From contig NC_019738.1 in NCBI RefSeq assembly GCF_000317515.1, positions 5,854,001 to 5,918,000 on the forward strand: 64,000 bases of DNA, given 5' to 3'. The notes under the pieces were generated by a model, which made no database searches, was not told the origin of the DNA, and was given only the letters and a program-made list of their open reading frames with translations. The position numbers and the translations under genes are program-made. Below, piece after piece: positions 51,467 to 60,362 of this stretch (position 1 is the stretch's first letter; each line of letters starts with the position of its first letter). Source of the stretch: Allocoleopsis franciscana PCC 7113 (GTDB lineage Bacteria > Cyanobacteriota > Cyanobacteriia > Cyanobacteriales > Coleofasciculaceae).

Positions 51467-53194
<1,728 letters not shown>

Positions 53195-53291: not shown

Positions 53292-53435
53292 GAATGGGTA
53301 ATTTAATCTCTTGCTGGCTAGCTCTGGCTCATAACCCTAAATATGAACTTCTCTCTCATTCTTTTCTCTGCGTGAACTCTGTGTTCTCTGTGGTTAATAA
53401 AACAAAACTCTAAATCCCATCAAATCACTATATCA

Positions 53436-55250
53436 ATGGCTAATTTTATTCTGATTATCGATCCCGATCTAGAACGGCGATCGCATTTCGCTCAAACCAT
53501 AGAACCTCTGTTACCTCCAGTTACAGGACTCATCACCAATTCCTGCACTACAGGAGATTTCTATGCGGGTTGGGCTGCTAGTCCTCATGCTCCCATTAGC
53601 TGGGATACTGACCATAATGGAGCTACCATTATTTGGGGAGACGCCATTAAGTCCGTCGAAGCCACCAGAATTGATAGCCGAGAATTGAGAACTCTCTGGA
53701 ACGATTCTCTTAATACGAGTGTGCCTTGTTTTGATGGCTTTTATGCAGCCGTTGCCTATCGTCCCGATTTCGGTTTGACTGTAGGAGCCGACCTCCTGGG
53801 ACTGTTCCCCGTATACTACTATACTTACCGCGACATTATCCTCGTCGGCTCAAGTCCAGAACTTTTCCAACACCATCCTCTATTTAAGAAAGCCTTTAAT
53901 CCGGCTGGACTGGTTGGTATTTTGCTGACGAATGGACTCATTGATGGTCAAACTTTATGGCAAAATGTTCGACGCCTCAATGCGGGACATTCGCTAATCT
54001 GGCAACCGTCCGTAGCTCCGACTGAAGTCAAGCAGTATCAAATTCTCAGCTCGGCACCAGATGACTCTTACAAAAATCTTTCCTTCTCCGAGCATTTGAA
54101 CATTGTAGAGCAAGTCCTCGACCAAGCTCTAAGAAGTCAAATACCCACCGGAGAACGATGTAGTTTGATGCTTTCCGGAGGGCTAGATTCTCGGATGATC
54201 GCAGGGTTCCTCCACCGACAAGGTGTGGAAACCGTAGCCTTAACCTTGGGGAAACCTTCTGATATAGAAATGCAGTGTGCGATTCCCGTTGCTCGTACCC
54301 TTGGATTAAAACATTACAAAATAGAGATTTCGCGCGATCGCTATCCTCTCTATGCCGATCCATTCATTAAATGGGAGCATTTAGCAAACGGTGGCAACGG
54401 ACTTATGCGTTGGGGAATTCATCCTCATTTAACCAAGTTGGCTCCAAGAGTAGTATCAGGCTACCTGATAGATCGAATAATAGGAGGCAAATGGACTTAC
54501 TCACTCCCAACCCAGGCTCTCTCATTCGACACGTATTTTAGTCAGATTAATTTATGGGGCTTTGCCCCTCAATTGCTAGAAACACTTCTACATAAAGATG
54601 TGTTTGGCGATTTGGTTCAAGATACCCTAGAGGTTATTCGGAAAATCTACAACAGCTATTCCGACCTTGACTTCAAACGTACTTTGTGCTTTGAACTTTA
54701 CCATCGGCAACGGTTTCATATTGGTTCAATACCTTGGCAACTGTGTTTTGGAGCATGGCCTGTTCTGCCATTTCTCTCCAAGCAGCTACTAGAAACAACG
54801 GCGGCAATACCTGTAGAGTCGCTCATGCAGCGACGAATGCAAAAAGAACTCGTTTGTCAGCGATTTGGGCAACTCGCTGCCCTACCATTAGACCGCAACG
54901 ACTACAACACAGAACCTCTAAAACCCCGCCAGCGTCGTCCTTCCATCGCTCGCCTCTATCGCTTACAACAACGATTGCAACAACGATGGAGACGGTTAGA
55001 GCAAAAACTAGGATACGAGCGACGCTACTACTACCGAATTTACGACATCAATCACCCTGGATGGCAAGCCGTGCGACAACAGGCAGAACCCTACCGTCCC
55101 CTAGTCCGGCATCTTTTTGACGAACAGGTTTTTGATTCCCTACTACCCCCTCCCGATGTTCCTGTACAGTTTCGGTATGATGCAATTACCGAAGCCTCTG
55201 GAATTAAAGCGTTGTTAGGATTCTTGCTCTGGTCAAAGGAACACCTGTAA
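53436..55250 (+). CDS. Asparagine-synthetase-like ATP-dependent ligase
   Basis: This 604-residue protein has a PP-loop adenylating domain of the asparagine synthetase B type: S247-G-G-L-D-S252 in CSLMLSGGLDSRMIAGFL. An N-terminal glutaminase-like fold precedes it (FDGFYAAVAYRPDFGLTVGA), but the frame starts MANFILIIDPDLERRS. The residue after Met is therefore not the Cys needed for glutamine hydrolysis. Proteins of this kind form amide or lactam bonds in natural-product pathways as well as in amino-acid metabolism. Its stop overlaps the next gene (TAATG), so the two are probably made together. Confidence 0.85.
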   Translation: MANFILIIDPDLERRSHFAQTIEPLLPPVTGLITNSCTTGDFYAGWAASPHAPISWDTDHNGATIIWGDAIKSVEATRIDSRELRTLWNDSLNTSVPCFDGFYAAVAYRPDFGLTVGADLLGLFPVYYYTYRDIILVGSSPELFQHHPLFKKAFNPAGLVGILLTNGLIDGQTLWQNVRRLNAGHSLIWQPSVAPTEVKQYQILSSAPDDSYKNLSFSEHLNIVEQVLDQALRSQIPTGERCSLMLSGGLDSRMIAGFLHRQGVETVALTLGKPSDIEMQCAIPVARTLGLKHYKIEISRDRYPLYADPFIKWEHLANGGNGLMRWGIHPHLTKLAPRVVSGYLIDRIIGGKWTYSLPTQALSFDTYFSQINLWGFAPQLLETLLHKDVFGDLVQDTLEVIRKIYNSYSDLDFKRTLCFELYHRQRFHIGSIPWQLCFGAWPVLPFLSKQLLETTAAIPVESLMQRRMQKELVCQRFGQLAALPLDRNDYNTEPLKPRQRRPSIARLYRLQQRLQQRWRRLEQKLGYERRYYYRIYDINHPGWQAVRQQAEPYRPLVRHLFDEQVFDSLLPPPDVPVQFRYDAITEASGIKALLGFLLWSKEHL

Positions 55251-56458
55251 TGCAGCAAACTCATATCTGGTCAGAAGAAGCGGTTGAAGCCGATGGTTCC
55301 ATAACTCTCAGCATCACGATTGAGTATCCTAACGAACAACCTCGCTCTCGTTTGTGGTATAAGATTCCTGCTGAGTTCGGTTCTCTGCTGACGGATAGTT
55401 CCGATCCGTTTGTAGTAGCGATGATTCTGCCAGCAATGTTTTACGCAGCGCCATTAATCGTTCATGGCAAAGTTTCACCCTCACTCCTCCAAAATTTAGA
55501 AGAGTTTCAAGCGGCTTGGGCTTGCTGGCGTCCGAACTTTTACAAACCCATTGAAATCTCTGCCGAAGTCGAGCAAGAAGCGCAAAAGCCTCCTTCAGAA
55601 ATTGCTATTGCAGCCTTCTCTGGTGGGGTGGATAGTTGTTTTACAGCATTCCGTCATCATGCCAATCCCAGCCGGAGATTTCAGCGCAATTTACAAGCTG
55701 GTTTAATGGTTCACGGATTTGATATTCCTTTAGAAGAACAGCAGGCGTTTGACGGAGCAGCACAAAAATCAAGGGCAATTCTCAGTAGCTTGGGACTAAA
55801 ATTAATCGCGATCGCTACAAATTACCGACAGATTGAACAAAAACTAAGATGGGAGGATGCTTACGGGCCGGCAGTTGCTTCAAGTTTAATGTTGTTCCAG
55901 AATACCTATAGTATCGGTCTGATTGCTAGCGCGTTTTCTTATCACAATTTACTTTTGCCTCGCGGTTCAAATCCAGTCACTGACACGCTCCTTTCCAATA
56001 AAGCGTTTCAACTTATTCATGATGGCGCTGGCTATACTCGCCTAGAAAAAATTCGAGAAATTGGCAATTGGAAAGAAGCAAGACAAAACTTAAGAGTTTG
56101 CTGGCAAGGTAGCCAAAAAGACCGCAATTGTGGGCAATGCGAGAAATGTATTCGGACAATTCTAGGCTTTCGAGTTTTGGGTCTGGGGTTACCGGCTTGT
56201 TTTGAGCAAGATGTAACCGATAGCCAAATTTCAGGAATCCAGGGATTATCCGAAATTCAGAGGTATGACCTCGAGCTTATCTTAAAAGCTGCAAAAGATT
56301 CGATTTCTGATTCCTGGGTAACCGCACTGAAAACATGCATCGTTGGCAACCGATCTGGAGGTATAAAACCCGATAAATGGGCGATTCTGAAACAAAGGTT
56401 ACCGCCATCGCTGCTCAAGCCGTTAGGGACGTTGCGATCGCGCCTATTCTCTAAATAA
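55250..56458 (+). CDS. QueC-like PP-loop protein with zinc-binding cysteines
   Basis: This 402-residue protein begins at an ATG overlapping the previous stop. The adenylating loop is S124-G-G-V-D-S129 (AAFSGGVDSCFTAFRHH). Near the C-terminus four cysteines, C284 (VCWQG), C294, C297 and C300 (NCGQCEKCIRTI), match the zinc site of QueC (7-cyano-7-deazaguanine synthase). The protein is much longer than QueC (about 230 residues), with extra N-terminal and C-terminal parts. I infer an ATP-dependent amide- or nitrile-forming activity on an unknown substrate. No other queuosine gene is present here. Confidence 0.8.
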   Translation: MQQTHIWSEEAVEADGSITLSITIEYPNEQPRSRLWYKIPAEFGSLLTDSSDPFVVAMILPAMFYAAPLIVHGKVSPSLLQNLEEFQAAWACWRPNFYKPIEISAEVEQEAQKPPSEIAIAAFSGGVDSCFTAFRHHANPSRRFQRNLQAGLMVHGFDIPLEEQQAFDGAAQKSRAILSSLGLKLIAIATNYRQIEQKLRWEDAYGPAVASSLMLFQNTYSIGLIASAFSYHNLLLPRGSNPVTDTLLSNKAFQLIHDGAGYTRLEKIREIGNWKEARQNLRVCWQGSQKDRNCGQCEKCIRTILGFRVLGLGLPACFEQDVTDSQISGIQGLSEIQRYDLELILKAAKDSISDSWVTALKTCIVGNRSGGIKPDKWAILKQRLPPSLLKPLGTLRSRLFSK

Positions 56459-56597
56459 GTTAAAAGTACTTGCCACGGATTGACAGTGGTGCTACTTGTG
56501 AAAGGAGACAAAGCTTAATCATGCATCAGGCGAATCGCACCAGTCAAACCAGTGCGAGCGCTACTTTCGCTTGCCATTCATCAGGGGGTACCAACTT

Positions 56598-58001
56598 ATG
56601 ACTACTGAGCTAAAAAATCCCGTTAATAACGACCTATTGGCAGAACTCAATAATAAGCATTATTTAATCGTCCATAACTTTACACAAAAGCAGTTTTATT
56701 ATGACTCTATCAAACAGATGATTTTTGACGGAATTGAACAAATTGAAGGAGTTGAATGCCGCCGCTCTATTGAAAAACATGGCTTGGCTACCATGCACAA
56801 ATATTTTCCTGTAGATAAAGTTTTCTACTTAGATATATTTATTAGAAAGCATATTCACCGATTGCAGATGGAGCTAGCTTACTCATTCTGCAAAAATGAT
56901 TTGAAGGTATCTACTGAGTTTTTTATAGCGCCAGAGGCTTTAGTAGTTAAAATTTGTTATCCATTTGAGGTAGCTGTAAAATCAAAAGTTACTTACCAGC
57001 AATACGAACAATATCAAGCTCAACAATTAAAGTTATCAAAACCATTTAACCTTAAAGAATCTCTAAAAGCCGTTAAAGTCAAGACCAAAAATCTGCTCCA
57101 AAAACCTCAGACTCACGTTGGTTATCACGACCATTATCCCTATGCTGCTCATGCTTATGCTCCTCATTTAGATAGTTGGTATAGAGTTCCATTAAATGGG
57201 ATAAATCTGTGGTGGGCGATTGCGGGTGTCCAAGAAGATAATAGTATGGTTTTTTATCCGGAAGCCTTTGGAAGGTATATTCAGTATCAGCGAGATATTG
57301 CTTATATTCCTCCCGGAAATACACTGCCTAAACCACATAAATTACAGCTTCAAGATGGGAGTATTTTTGTATTTAATTCCGATTTATTACATGGAAGTCA
57401 CTTGAATATTTCAAACCTCACCAGAATTGCGCTCAGTCCCCGAGTAATTTTGCAAAAACCTACCTTTTATCCTGATTCTTCAAACCGAGAATATAGTGGC
57501 TGGCATTCCTCTAAAGATATTGGTAGAGGAGAGTTTGAAAAACTGATTAAGTTTCCTAAAAAGGAGAACTGGGGTACTCTCTATGAAGGTAGACAAAAGC
57601 CTTATGTAGAAAAACGGATATCCATTACACTAAACTCTAGCCTTTCTGAAGTAACACCGATCGCTTTGTGTCCTTCGGATACTCTTAGCGTTGGCGAAAA
57701 AATGCTAGTGAATTTCCGCCGAGAAAGTATTGTCATTCTCAGAACCATTGAAGGACTAAGAGCTGTGAGTGCGCTTTGCCCTCATCTCAAGGCTAACTTA
57801 ATTGATGGGTTTCATGATGAACAGCATATTTATTGTCCGGGACATGCCGTTACCTTTTCTTTAACCGATGGTTCATCTAAGTGCAACTTACTCAAGGTAC
57901 GGGTTTATAACGTGTATGATCACGATGGTCAAATCTTAATCGAGAAAGCCGTAAATCAATTGGATGCCCATCTCGACAAAAGCCATTGCACTGAACTCTA
58001 A
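56598..58001 (+). CDS. Fe(II)/2OG-type dioxygenase fused to a Rieske domain
   Basis: I take the ATG at 56598 because AGGGGG lies 9 bases ahead; an upstream TTG at 56571 is less likely. The 467-residue product has a phytanoyl-CoA-dioxygenase-like domain with HxD at H190-L-D192 and a distal His (H265 or H268 in LLHGSHLN). A Rieske [2Fe-2S] site follows, C394-P-H396 and C413-P-G-H416, spaced as usual. It is an oxygenase with a built-in electron carrier, possibly hydroxylating the product of the two ligases encoded ahead of it. The 139-base gap before it still allows a common operon. Confidence 0.83.
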   Translation: MTTELKNPVNNDLLAELNNKHYLIVHNFTQKQFYYDSIKQMIFDGIEQIEGVECRRSIEKHGLATMHKYFPVDKVFYLDIFIRKHIHRLQMELAYSFCKNDLKVSTEFFIAPEALVVKICYPFEVAVKSKVTYQQYEQYQAQQLKLSKPFNLKESLKAVKVKTKNLLQKPQTHVGYHDHYPYAAHAYAPHLDSWYRVPLNGINLWWAIAGVQEDNSMVFYPEAFGRYIQYQRDIAYIPPGNTLPKPHKLQLQDGSIFVFNSDLLHGSHLNISNLTRIALSPRVILQKPTFYPDSSNREYSGWHSSKDIGRGEFEKLIKFPKKENWGTLYEGRQKPYVEKRISITLNSSLSEVTPIALCPSDTLSVGEKMLVNFRRESIVILRTIEGLRAVSALCPHLKANLIDGFHDEQHIYCPGHAVTFSLTDGSSKCNLLKVRVYNVYDHDGQILIEKAVNQLDAHLDKSHCTEL

Positions 58002-58334
58002 CTTGGAGAGTTAATAGGAAAATTTGGTGAACGACTCTTATCAATAAGCTTGCTGATATCGCTAGACGGCCTTACATCAGTCAAGAGCGAATAGAATAGA
58101 CGCGATCGCACACTAGCGCAATGGAAGGTTCAAGCTGTACGTTGCTAAACAAACTCTCCTGTTCTTGACAAGGACTGAAGGCAGACAAGGCTTGGAAAAC
58201 CAGCACAGGAACGCGAAATTCCCGGATCAGGTAGGGAAATCCGAATCACTCTTAGGGGGTAATCCGAGGAACAAAACCCCCTGCGATCGCACAAAATCAC
58301 ACTTGAAGACCTTTTAAATCACTAAACTACACCT
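58002..58334. other. 333-bp region upstream of htpG
   Basis: No gene is apparent. HIP1 sites occur near 58103 and 58283. The region should contain the htpG promoter; I see no CIRCE-type inverted repeat. Confidence 0.4.
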
Positions 58335-60362
58335 ATGACGATCCTAGAACAGGGCAATATCACTATTCATACAGAAAATATCTTTCCCATTATCAAGAAG
58401 TCGCTCTACACCGACCACGAAATCTTCTTGCGGGAACTGATCTCTAATTCCGTCGATGCCATCCAAAAGTTGAAAATGGTCTCCTACGCCGGCGAAGTTG
58501 ACGGTGAGTTGGAAGAACCAGAAATTGTTATCACCATTGATAAAGACAACAAAACCCTATCCATCTCTGATAATGGGATTGGCATGACCGCCGATGAGGT
58601 GAAAAAATACATTAACCAAGTCGCCTTTTCCAGTGCCGAGGAATTTATCCAGAAATATCAAAAAGACGCTGATCAACAGATTATCGGTCACTTCGGTTTA
58701 GGCTTCTACTCCTCCTTCATGGTGGCGAAGAAGGTGGAAATTGATACCCTCTCCTATAGAGCAGGAGCGCAGGCGGTACACTGGTCTTGTGACGGTTCCC
58801 CAGCTTTTGAGTTAACCGATTCCACCCGTACCCAGCGCGGGACGACTGTAACTCTGACCCTGCAAGACGAGGAACAGGAATACATTGAAGCGATGCGGAT
58901 TAAGCAGTTGGTGAAAGCCTACTGTGATTTTATGCCCGTGTCGATCAAGCTCGATGGCGAACAAATTAACAAGCAGCGGGCACTTTGGAAGGAATCACCG
59001 CAAAGCCTGACCACAGAAGATTATTTAGAGTTCTATCGTTATCTTTACCCTTTCCAAGAAGACCCGCTACTGTGGGTGCATCTGAACACAGACTATCCTT
59101 TCCTGCTTAACGGCATTCTCTACTTCCCCAAACTCAAGCCCGATGTGGATGTGACAAAGGGTAACATCAAGCTGTTCTGCAATCAGGTGTTTGTCAGTGA
59201 CCACTGCGAAGAAGTCATTCCCAAATTTTTGATGCCGTTGCGGGGGGTGATTGATAGTCCGGATATTCCCTTAAACGTTTCCCGTAGCGCCCTGACTAAT
59301 GATCGCACCGTGCGGCGCATTGCGGACTTCATTGCCAAAAAAGTCGGCGATCGCTTAAAGTCTCTCTACAATGAAGGGCGCGACGAATACATTCGCTGTT
59401 GGCAAGATGTCGGCACCTTCGTCAAATTTGGCTCTCTCAACGACGATAAGTTCAAGAAGCAAGTCGAAGACATCATTATTTATCGCACCACCCATGAGGC
59501 AGGGGAGCAAGGGAGCAAGGGAACAGGGGAGCAAGCCAGCAACCCAGAAACTCCGACCGTTGAGGTGCAATCCCAAGAAGGCGATGCTTGGCAAGAGGTC
59601 ACTCCTAGCAATACAGAAGACAATCCCAAATCCAACACCCAAAAATCCACATCGAACTACACTACCCTCAAGGAGTATCTAGAGCGCAACAAGGAACACC
59701 ACGAAAACCGTGTTTTCTACTGCAACGATGAAGCGTCCCAAGCCACTTATGTAGAATTACACAAAAATCAAGGTTTGGAAGTCCTGTTTATGGACTCCTT
59801 CATCGACCCTCACTTCATCAGCTTTTTAGAGCGCGAGTATTCGGATGTCAAGTTCTCGCGGGTAGACTCTGACTTAGATCAAACCCTGATTGATCAGGAT
59901 AAAGAGAAAGAGATTGTTGACCCCAAAACTAACAAAACCCGCAGCGAAGTGATCAAAGAGCTGTTTGAGAAATCACTCAATAAGCCAAAAGTCAACATCA
60001 AAACTCAAGCACTGAAGTCTGATGACGCCCAAGGAACACCACCCGCAATGGTGTTGTTACCGGAGGCGATGCGGCGTCTGCGGGAGATGACAGCGCTGCT
60101 TCAGCAGCAAAATGCCGAGTTCCCCGAAGAGCATGTGTTAATCGTGAATACCTCTCACCCACTGATTGAGAATCTTTATGAGCTGAGTCAGGGAAGTATC
60201 GTTCAAAGTAGTGGTCAGTCGCCTTCCGGGGAGTTGGCGAATCTGATTTGTCAGCATGTCTATGACTTAGCCTTGATGGCTCAGAAAGGGTTCGATGCTG
60301 AAGGGATGAAGTCGTTTGTTGAGCGTTCTAACCAGGTACTTACCCGCTTGACGCAACGTTAA
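58335..60362 (+). CDS. htpG: Molecular chaperone HtpG (Hsp90)
   Basis: This 675-residue chaperone begins MTILEQGNITIHTENIFPII and has the GHKL ATPase motifs LRELISNSVDAIQKL, ISDNGIGMTADEV and GHFGLGFYSSFMVAKKV. It then shows RGVIDSPDIPLNVSRSALTN. An unusual linker at about residues 388-437 (EAGEQGSKGTGEQASNPETP and on to a Ser/Thr/Asn-rich stretch) is encoded by a short repetitive run of GGGAGCAAG units. Such a linker is not part of E. coli HtpG and lies at the middle-to-C-terminal domain junction. Otherwise the protein is intact. Confidence 0.95.
   Translation: MTILEQGNITIHTENIFPIIKKSLYTDHEIFLRELISNSVDAIQKLKMVSYAGEVDGELEEPEIVITIDKDNKTLSISDNGIGMTADEVKKYINQVAFSSAEEFIQKYQKDADQQIIGHFGLGFYSSFMVAKKVEIDTLSYRAGAQAVHWSCDGSPAFELTDSTRTQRGTTVTLTLQDEEQEYIEAMRIKQLVKAYCDFMPVSIKLDGEQINKQRALWKESPQSLTTEDYLEFYRYLYPFQEDPLLWVHLNTDYPFLLNGILYFPKLKPDVDVTKGNIKLFCNQVFVSDHCEEVIPKFLMPLRGVIDSPDIPLNVSRSALTNDRTVRRIADFIAKKVGDRLKSLYNEGRDEYIRCWQDVGTFVKFGSLNDDKFKKQVEDIIIYRTTHEAGEQGSKGTGEQASNPETPTVEVQSQEGDAWQEVTPSNTEDNPKSNTQKSTSNYTTLKEYLERNKEHHENRVFYCNDEASQATYVELHKNQGLEVLFMDSFIDPHFISFLEREYSDVKFSRVDSDLDQTLIDQDKEKEIVDPKTNKTRSEVIKELFEKSLNKPKVNIKTQALKSDDAQGTPPAMVLLPEAMRRLREMTALLQQQNAEFPEEHVLIVNTSHPLIENLYELSQGSIVQSSGQSPSGELANLICQHVYDLALMAQKGFDAEGMKSFVERSNQVLTRLTQR

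Follow-up and report, generated by a model that had tools for sequence, protein, structure and literature searches.

In the cyanobacterium Allocoleopsis franciscana PCC 7113, an asparagine-synthetase-fold protein (NS) and a QueC-like PP-loop protein (QC) form a conserved pair of ATP-using enzymes that is non-housekeeping and has no description in the literature searched, in agreement with a previous sequence-only reading that knew of no pathway with these enzymes. It is proposed, with a probability of roughly 0.5, that NS and QC belong to a cluster for the decoration of surface glycans and are the half of it that ligates nitrogen; a carboxylate on a pyruvylated glycan would undergo ATP-dependent N-modification, and the accompanying oxygenases would be interchangeable. 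That the cluster modifies a glycan is likely. That the reaction is carboxylate amidation as such is considerably more doubtful, and amidation of the pyruvate ketal itself is unlikely.

The window, by which is meant the whole 64,000-nucleotide stretch of DNA that was analysed (contig NC_019738.1, positions 5,854,001 to 5,918,000 of the forward strand), had been read as containing a three-gene operon, with a PhyH-Rieske oxygenase (DR) as the third member. All three open reading frames were found at the places described and on one strand. The features are the following, G388 being a genome of the same genus:

51467..53155, minus strand: pyrG (CTP synthase), flank outside the cassette, placed beside NS by inversion
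53334..53342, no strand: breakpoint of an inversion of about 61 kb, whose far breakpoint is at genome positions 5845709-5846088, outside the window
53342..58229, plus strand: divergent, putatively exchangeable cassette with NS, QC and the oxygenase, mostly unalignable DNA versus G388
53436..55250, plus strand: NS, 604 aa, asparagine-synthetase-fold ligase without N-terminal catalytic Cys
54174..54191, plus strand: PP-loop SGGLDS of NS, residues 247-252
55250..56458, plus strand: QC, 402 aa, QueC-like PP-loop protein with N- and C-terminal extensions
55616..55636, plus strand: PP-loop FSGGVDS of QC, residues 123-129
56099..56149, plus strand: probable zinc site of QC, C284-x9-C294-xx-C297-xx-C300
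56598..58001, plus strand: DR, 467 aa, fusion of a PhyH-like Fe(II) dioxygenase with a Rieske [2Fe-2S] domain
57165..57173, plus strand: HxD of the DR dioxygenase site, H190 and D192
57777..57845, plus strand: complete Rieske motif of DR, C-x-H-x16-C-x2-H
58335..60362, plus strand: htpG, flank and ancestral downstream neighbour of the cluster

The reading frames of NS and QC overlap by TAATG, as had been noticed, and a gap of 139 nt separates QC from DR, for which the ATG at 56598 (467 aa) was preferred over the TTG at 56571. The adjacency of the three genes across genomes, which had been put forward as a check, was borne out for NS and QC and failed for DR. Orthologues of NS occur at 13 loci, in cyanobacteria and one Chloroflexota genome, and QC is adjacent at 12 of them (the window, Kastovskya, two Symploca, G388, G389, G393, two in G180, G287, an Anaerolineae bin and an uncultured bacterium, the last with the gene order reversed). 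DR is missing from every other NS–QC locus and adjoins the pair only in the window, so the operon does not hold as a three-gene unit.

One NS copy departs from the NS–QC adjacency, the third of G180 (L147:4877-10579), which lies near a Rieske oxygenase and a FAD-dependent oxidase-like gene. At other loci, QC-like genes stand as tandem pairs or triplets without NS (L053:11457-15520, L072, L078 and L079), and at two (L042:1452-3274 and L069:1905-3712) a frameshift or an assembly error interrupts NS. A search for NS on plasmids gave only distant asparagine synthases.

The earlier description of NS, with an SGGLDS loop and no N-terminal catalytic Cys, was confirmed. The protein starts with MANF, so that position 2 is not Cys, and Ala2 is invariant across all aligned orthologues. 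The structural model of NS (pLDDT 87.7) gave whole-length fold matches with Z scores in the range 22-26, comprising TsnB9 (7ylz, 26.1), beta-lactam synthetase (23.9) and AsnB (23.4, spanning residues 2-604), and NS shares the fold and the PP-loop with these enzymes. However, it differs from the AsnB-type asparagine synthetase in lacking the glutaminase Cys and perhaps also in the residue at the catalytic Lys position, since AsnB K449 aligns to NS E471, a position not conserved as Lys in the orthologues (an uncertain assignment from two alignments at about 18% identity). The glutaminase Cys is likewise absent from beta-lactam synthetases. A Glu at the catalytic-Lys position may mean that NS uses other catalytic residues or is a non-catalytic partner, possibly inactive as a ligase.

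Related enzymes are known both from surface glycans and from specialised metabolism. WbpS, which is asparagine-synthase-like, forms a uronamide in P. gingivalis (PMC7468200). Both NS and the WbpS or TIGR03108 amidotransferases lie in glycan clusters, but WbpS is described as an amidotransferase, whereas NS has no Cys2 and reaches 52.2 bits against the TIGR03108 cut-off of 816.9. Asparagine-synthetase-like enzymes are also common in natural-product pathways, and one of the family, PesC, is nitrile-forming (PMC13060819).

In QC, the four zinc-site Cys residues that had been pointed out (284, 294, 297 and 300) are invariant in 57 homologues, as part of a QC-specific invariant set comprising G126, N191, R264, C284, N293, C294, C297, K299 and C300. 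The protein is indeed nearly twice the length of QueC, with about 170 residues more than the 231 aa of the canonical QueC encoded elsewhere in the same genome (E 1.2e-77). While QC shares the PP-loop and the four-Cys zinc site with canonical QueC (PF06508, PDB 3bl5), it scores 16.9 bits against a curated PF06508 cut-off of 22, and an E value of 0.01 is reached by 9 of the 57 homologues. The QueC substrate motifs YxQxHxxE, VPxRN and YPDC, defined like those of QatC after PMC13329287 and PMC13279940, are all present in the own-genome QueC and absent from QC; they were found in 0, 1 and 0 of the 57 homologues, respectively.

Ordinary housekeeping, namely asparagine and queuosine synthesis, is what the weak family matches (TIGR01536 at 2e-18 for NS, QueC at 0.005 for QC) would suggest at face value. 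The likelihood of this reading is close to nil, as QC falls under the curated QueC cut-off, NS falls far under the curated NCBIfam cut-offs, and QC has a patchy distribution, being found in 19 of 388 cyanobacterial genomes and in 11 of 20 within the window genome's own family. A housekeeping queC role for QC was rejected because the canonical QueC is present elsewhere in the genome. The unrelated housekeeping roles that the sequence-only reading had set against its own proposal were not found for NS and QC.

The AF2 model of QC (pLDDT 94.5) has QatC as its best fold match (Z 16.5, rmsd 4.8, 294 residues, QC 1-363), with core-only matches to QueC (Z 13.1, residues 116-314) and Cap9 (Z 12.2). 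A Foldseek search by itself found nothing significant for QC, the QatC match coming from a second structural comparison, and PDB sequence searches with NS, QC and DR gave weak matches for all three. QC shares with QatC of the qatABCD system (PDB 9y02/9y01) the PP-loop QueC core, the N-terminal alpha/beta extension and the C-terminal helical extension. In contrast, identity is 11%, the zinc spacing is different, and of the tested QatC motifs only the PP-loop is kept, with D4R7WxR, P4TK and the zinc variant C(x)19CGxCxxRR present in 0 of 57 QC homologues.

QatC and Cap9 target protein N-termini (PMC13279940, PMC13329287). Together with a fold match that runs over nearly the whole length of QC, extensions included, this raises the reading that QC likewise modifies a partner protein at its N-terminus and that the cluster serves in defence or protein modification. 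Such a role is quite improbable: the QatC signature motifs are absent, PADLOC gave no match for NS, QC or DR, and inspection of the loci by translation recognised no small MG-motif partner, qatA or qatD beside QC, whose neighbours are glycosyltransferases and a pyruvyl transferase. Membership of QC in qatABCD itself was rejected by motifs and context, as qatA, qatB and qatD belong to the QatC operon and none of them was recognised in the translations of the genes around NS–QC. A search for QC in phages gave no match. A further PP-loop protein with a zinc tetracysteine is LpNASAT, a WbpG-type N-acetyl sugar amidotransferase of LPS biosynthesis (PMC10607449); its CxxC-xn-[GN]xCxxC arrangement is, however, absent from 57 of 57 QC members.

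The glycan reading is carried by the gene neighbourhood. In relatives, the cluster consists of one or more GT2 glycosyltransferases, a polysaccharide pyruvyl transferase (PPT), NS and QC, directly before htpG, with a SAM methyltransferase at some loci or an oxygenase as variable extra genes. PPT and GT2 were confirmed in the loci by HMM scan, and Wzm/Wzt-type ABC exporter genes, identified by reading translations, stand beside QC in L059 and L060. The sequence-only reading had proposed an uncharacterised metabolite or peptide system; NS–QC is uncharacterised, as it held, and its guess at the target gives way to this setting of glycosyltransferases, PPT and exporters. The precursor peptide that it had suggested looking for was not found: there is no conserved small gene near NS–QC, of the kind by which a RiPP cluster is recognised, and the genes stand too close together to admit one, the intergenic ORFs of the window having only 15-51 codons and the gaps in relatives measuring 0-300 bp.

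PPT matches Pfam PF04230 over the full profile (1-280/280, E 1e-33), and eight core PPTs all conserve R146, R309, H311 and K332, in the pattern of R148, R306, H308 and K328 of CsaB. With the PEP-binding Arg, Arg-x-His and Lys kept, as in CsaB-type pyruvyl transferases, PPT probably adds pyruvate. No QueC-like or NS-like partner of CsaB is described in the literature searched, which also held nothing on a combination of a PP-loop protein with a pyruvyl transferase, and no cluster tied to pyruvyl transferases is described in the accessible part of the published PF06508 family survey.

The linkage between PPT and QC was assessed by searching PF04230 in 28 QC-bearing genomes, which hold 35 QC loci and 1-9 PPT matches each. 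In 16 of the 27 other genomes, PPT and QC are no more than 7 kb apart, against 0.24 of the 35 loci expected by chance, an estimate that ignores shared descent, with proximity flags assigned by hand and cases spanning several cyanobacterial families. No PPT lies near QC in the other 11, partly owing to short contigs. The PPT–QC pair also occurs outside cyanobacteria, in Chloroflexota, Kiritimatiellota and Pseudomonadota, and on Azospirillum plasmids it stands alone, without glycosyltransferases. A contig titled as a Klebsiella pneumoniae MAG (L061) carries the pair; the genes around it do not resemble Klebsiella genes, and the contig is probably mis-binned.

On plasmids of Gloeothece PCC 7822 and PCC 7424 (L165 and L166), the order GT-GT-GT-PPT-QC is found beside NRPS genes, and these are possible glycosylated lipopeptide loci; that of PCC 7424 also carries sulfotransferases. 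If the cluster as a whole decorated a glycosylated specialised metabolite, such as a lipopeptide or glycolipid, rather than a surface polymer, the NRPS genes of both plasmids, the few glycosyltransferases at some loci and the frequency of asparagine-synthetase-like enzymes in natural-product pathways would fit. This is nevertheless unlikely, since no NRPS or PKS gene was recognised at the NS loci and the exporters in L059 and L060 are of the polysaccharide type.

Under the surface-glycan proposal, the GT2 enzymes would assemble a short sugar unit, which PPT would cap with a pyruvate ketal bearing a free carboxylate. QC would then adenylate a carboxylate, of the pyruvate ketal or of a uronate, leading to an amide-type group, and NS, unable to make ammonia from glutamine, would couple an amine or support QC. 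The product would finally be hydroxylated by DR or, in the sister genome, by a JmjC oxygenase, yielding strain-specific surface variants. Several points run against glycan amidation: QC lacks the QueC substrate motifs, NS may be inactive as a ligase, no sugar-nucleotide genes were found in the cluster, 11 of the 27 genomes lack a PPT near QC, and the Azospirillum pair has no glycosyltransferases. Amide-type groups on, or amidation of, a pyruvate ketal have no description in the literature searched. A broader idea, to which a low probability is given, is that QC represents a widespread undescribed QueC/QatC-fold branch working with pyruvyl transferases, which would convert the pyruvate-ketal carboxylate of glycans into an amide, substituted amide or nitrile, a new sugar modification; QatC would then share its architecture by common origin from a sugar- or protein-modifying ligase.

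The glycosyltransferase half of the cluster is also present in the window genome. PPT is encoded at 5850138-5851250, just outside the window, and is 56% identical to the Kastovskya PPT. Four GT2 genes come next, in the same orientation. The order in G388 is ClpB-PPT-GT2x4-NS-QC-JmjC_2-htpG, and DNA alignment shows that genome positions 5846088-5907334 run in the opposite direction to G388 489597-564872. The outer flanks on either side are collinear, and one breakpoint lies about 94 bp upstream of NS. The inversion is derived in the window genome, because other relatives keep PPT-NS-QC together next to htpG. This inversion of about 61 kb carried PPT and the four GT2 genes away from NS–QC, and neither half was deleted.

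The DNA of window positions 53342-58229 is hardly alignable to G388, whereas the flanks are 91-94% identical. Across this block the proteins are about 60% identical to their G388 counterparts (62% for NS and 58% for QC), and the oxygenase slot is occupied by DR in the window and by a JmjC_2 protein in G388. The block NS-QC-oxygenase thus appears to be an exchangeable tailoring cassette, the pattern being that expected of a swapped surface-glycan cassette.

The domain composition of DR is as originally read, an HxD...H oxygenase joined to a complete Rieske site. Pfam matches are Rieske (1.3e-10) and PhyH (0.001), the dioxygenase residues are H190-L-D192 with His265 as the candidate distal His, and the Rieske site is C394-x-H396 ... 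C413-xx-H416. A literature search on Rieske-PhyH fusions gave nothing relevant. Three cyanobacterial genomes (L148:7643-9844, L149:8089-10256 and L150:8594-10825) have a close DR homologue (42-52% identity) beside a gene for a CpeS-like chromophore lyase, which may point to oxygenases of this type having a separate role in the vicinity of bilin proteins. Distant paralogues are located in exopolysaccharide-type clusters; one lies in a second cluster of this type in the same genome (L151, G000:C1:4820000-4839999), with GT2 genes and another PPT-like gene.

It is only a little short of an even chance that DR came in between QC and htpG as an unrelated passenger. Its absence from all the other NS–QC loci, its GC content of 37.5% (45-47% for QC and NS) and the CpeS-like neighbours of its closest homologues argue for this, while its co-directional position inside the same swapped block, the different oxygenase in the equivalent slot of the sister genome and the glycan clusters of its distant paralogues argue for a part in the cassette.

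QueC-fold enzymes have recently been found in immunity (Cap9 and QatC). The QC family has a QatC-like extended architecture and, in several phyla, a link to pyruvyl transferases, thus offering tractable relatives for the chemistry of the extended QueC fold, including the two-gene PPT–QC unit of Azospirillum. The proposed cluster is a candidate for a bacterial means of removing or masking the negative charge on pyruvylated glycans. In Allocoleopsis it is a probable surface-glycan locus in which blocks appear to have been exchanged and which an inversion has split.
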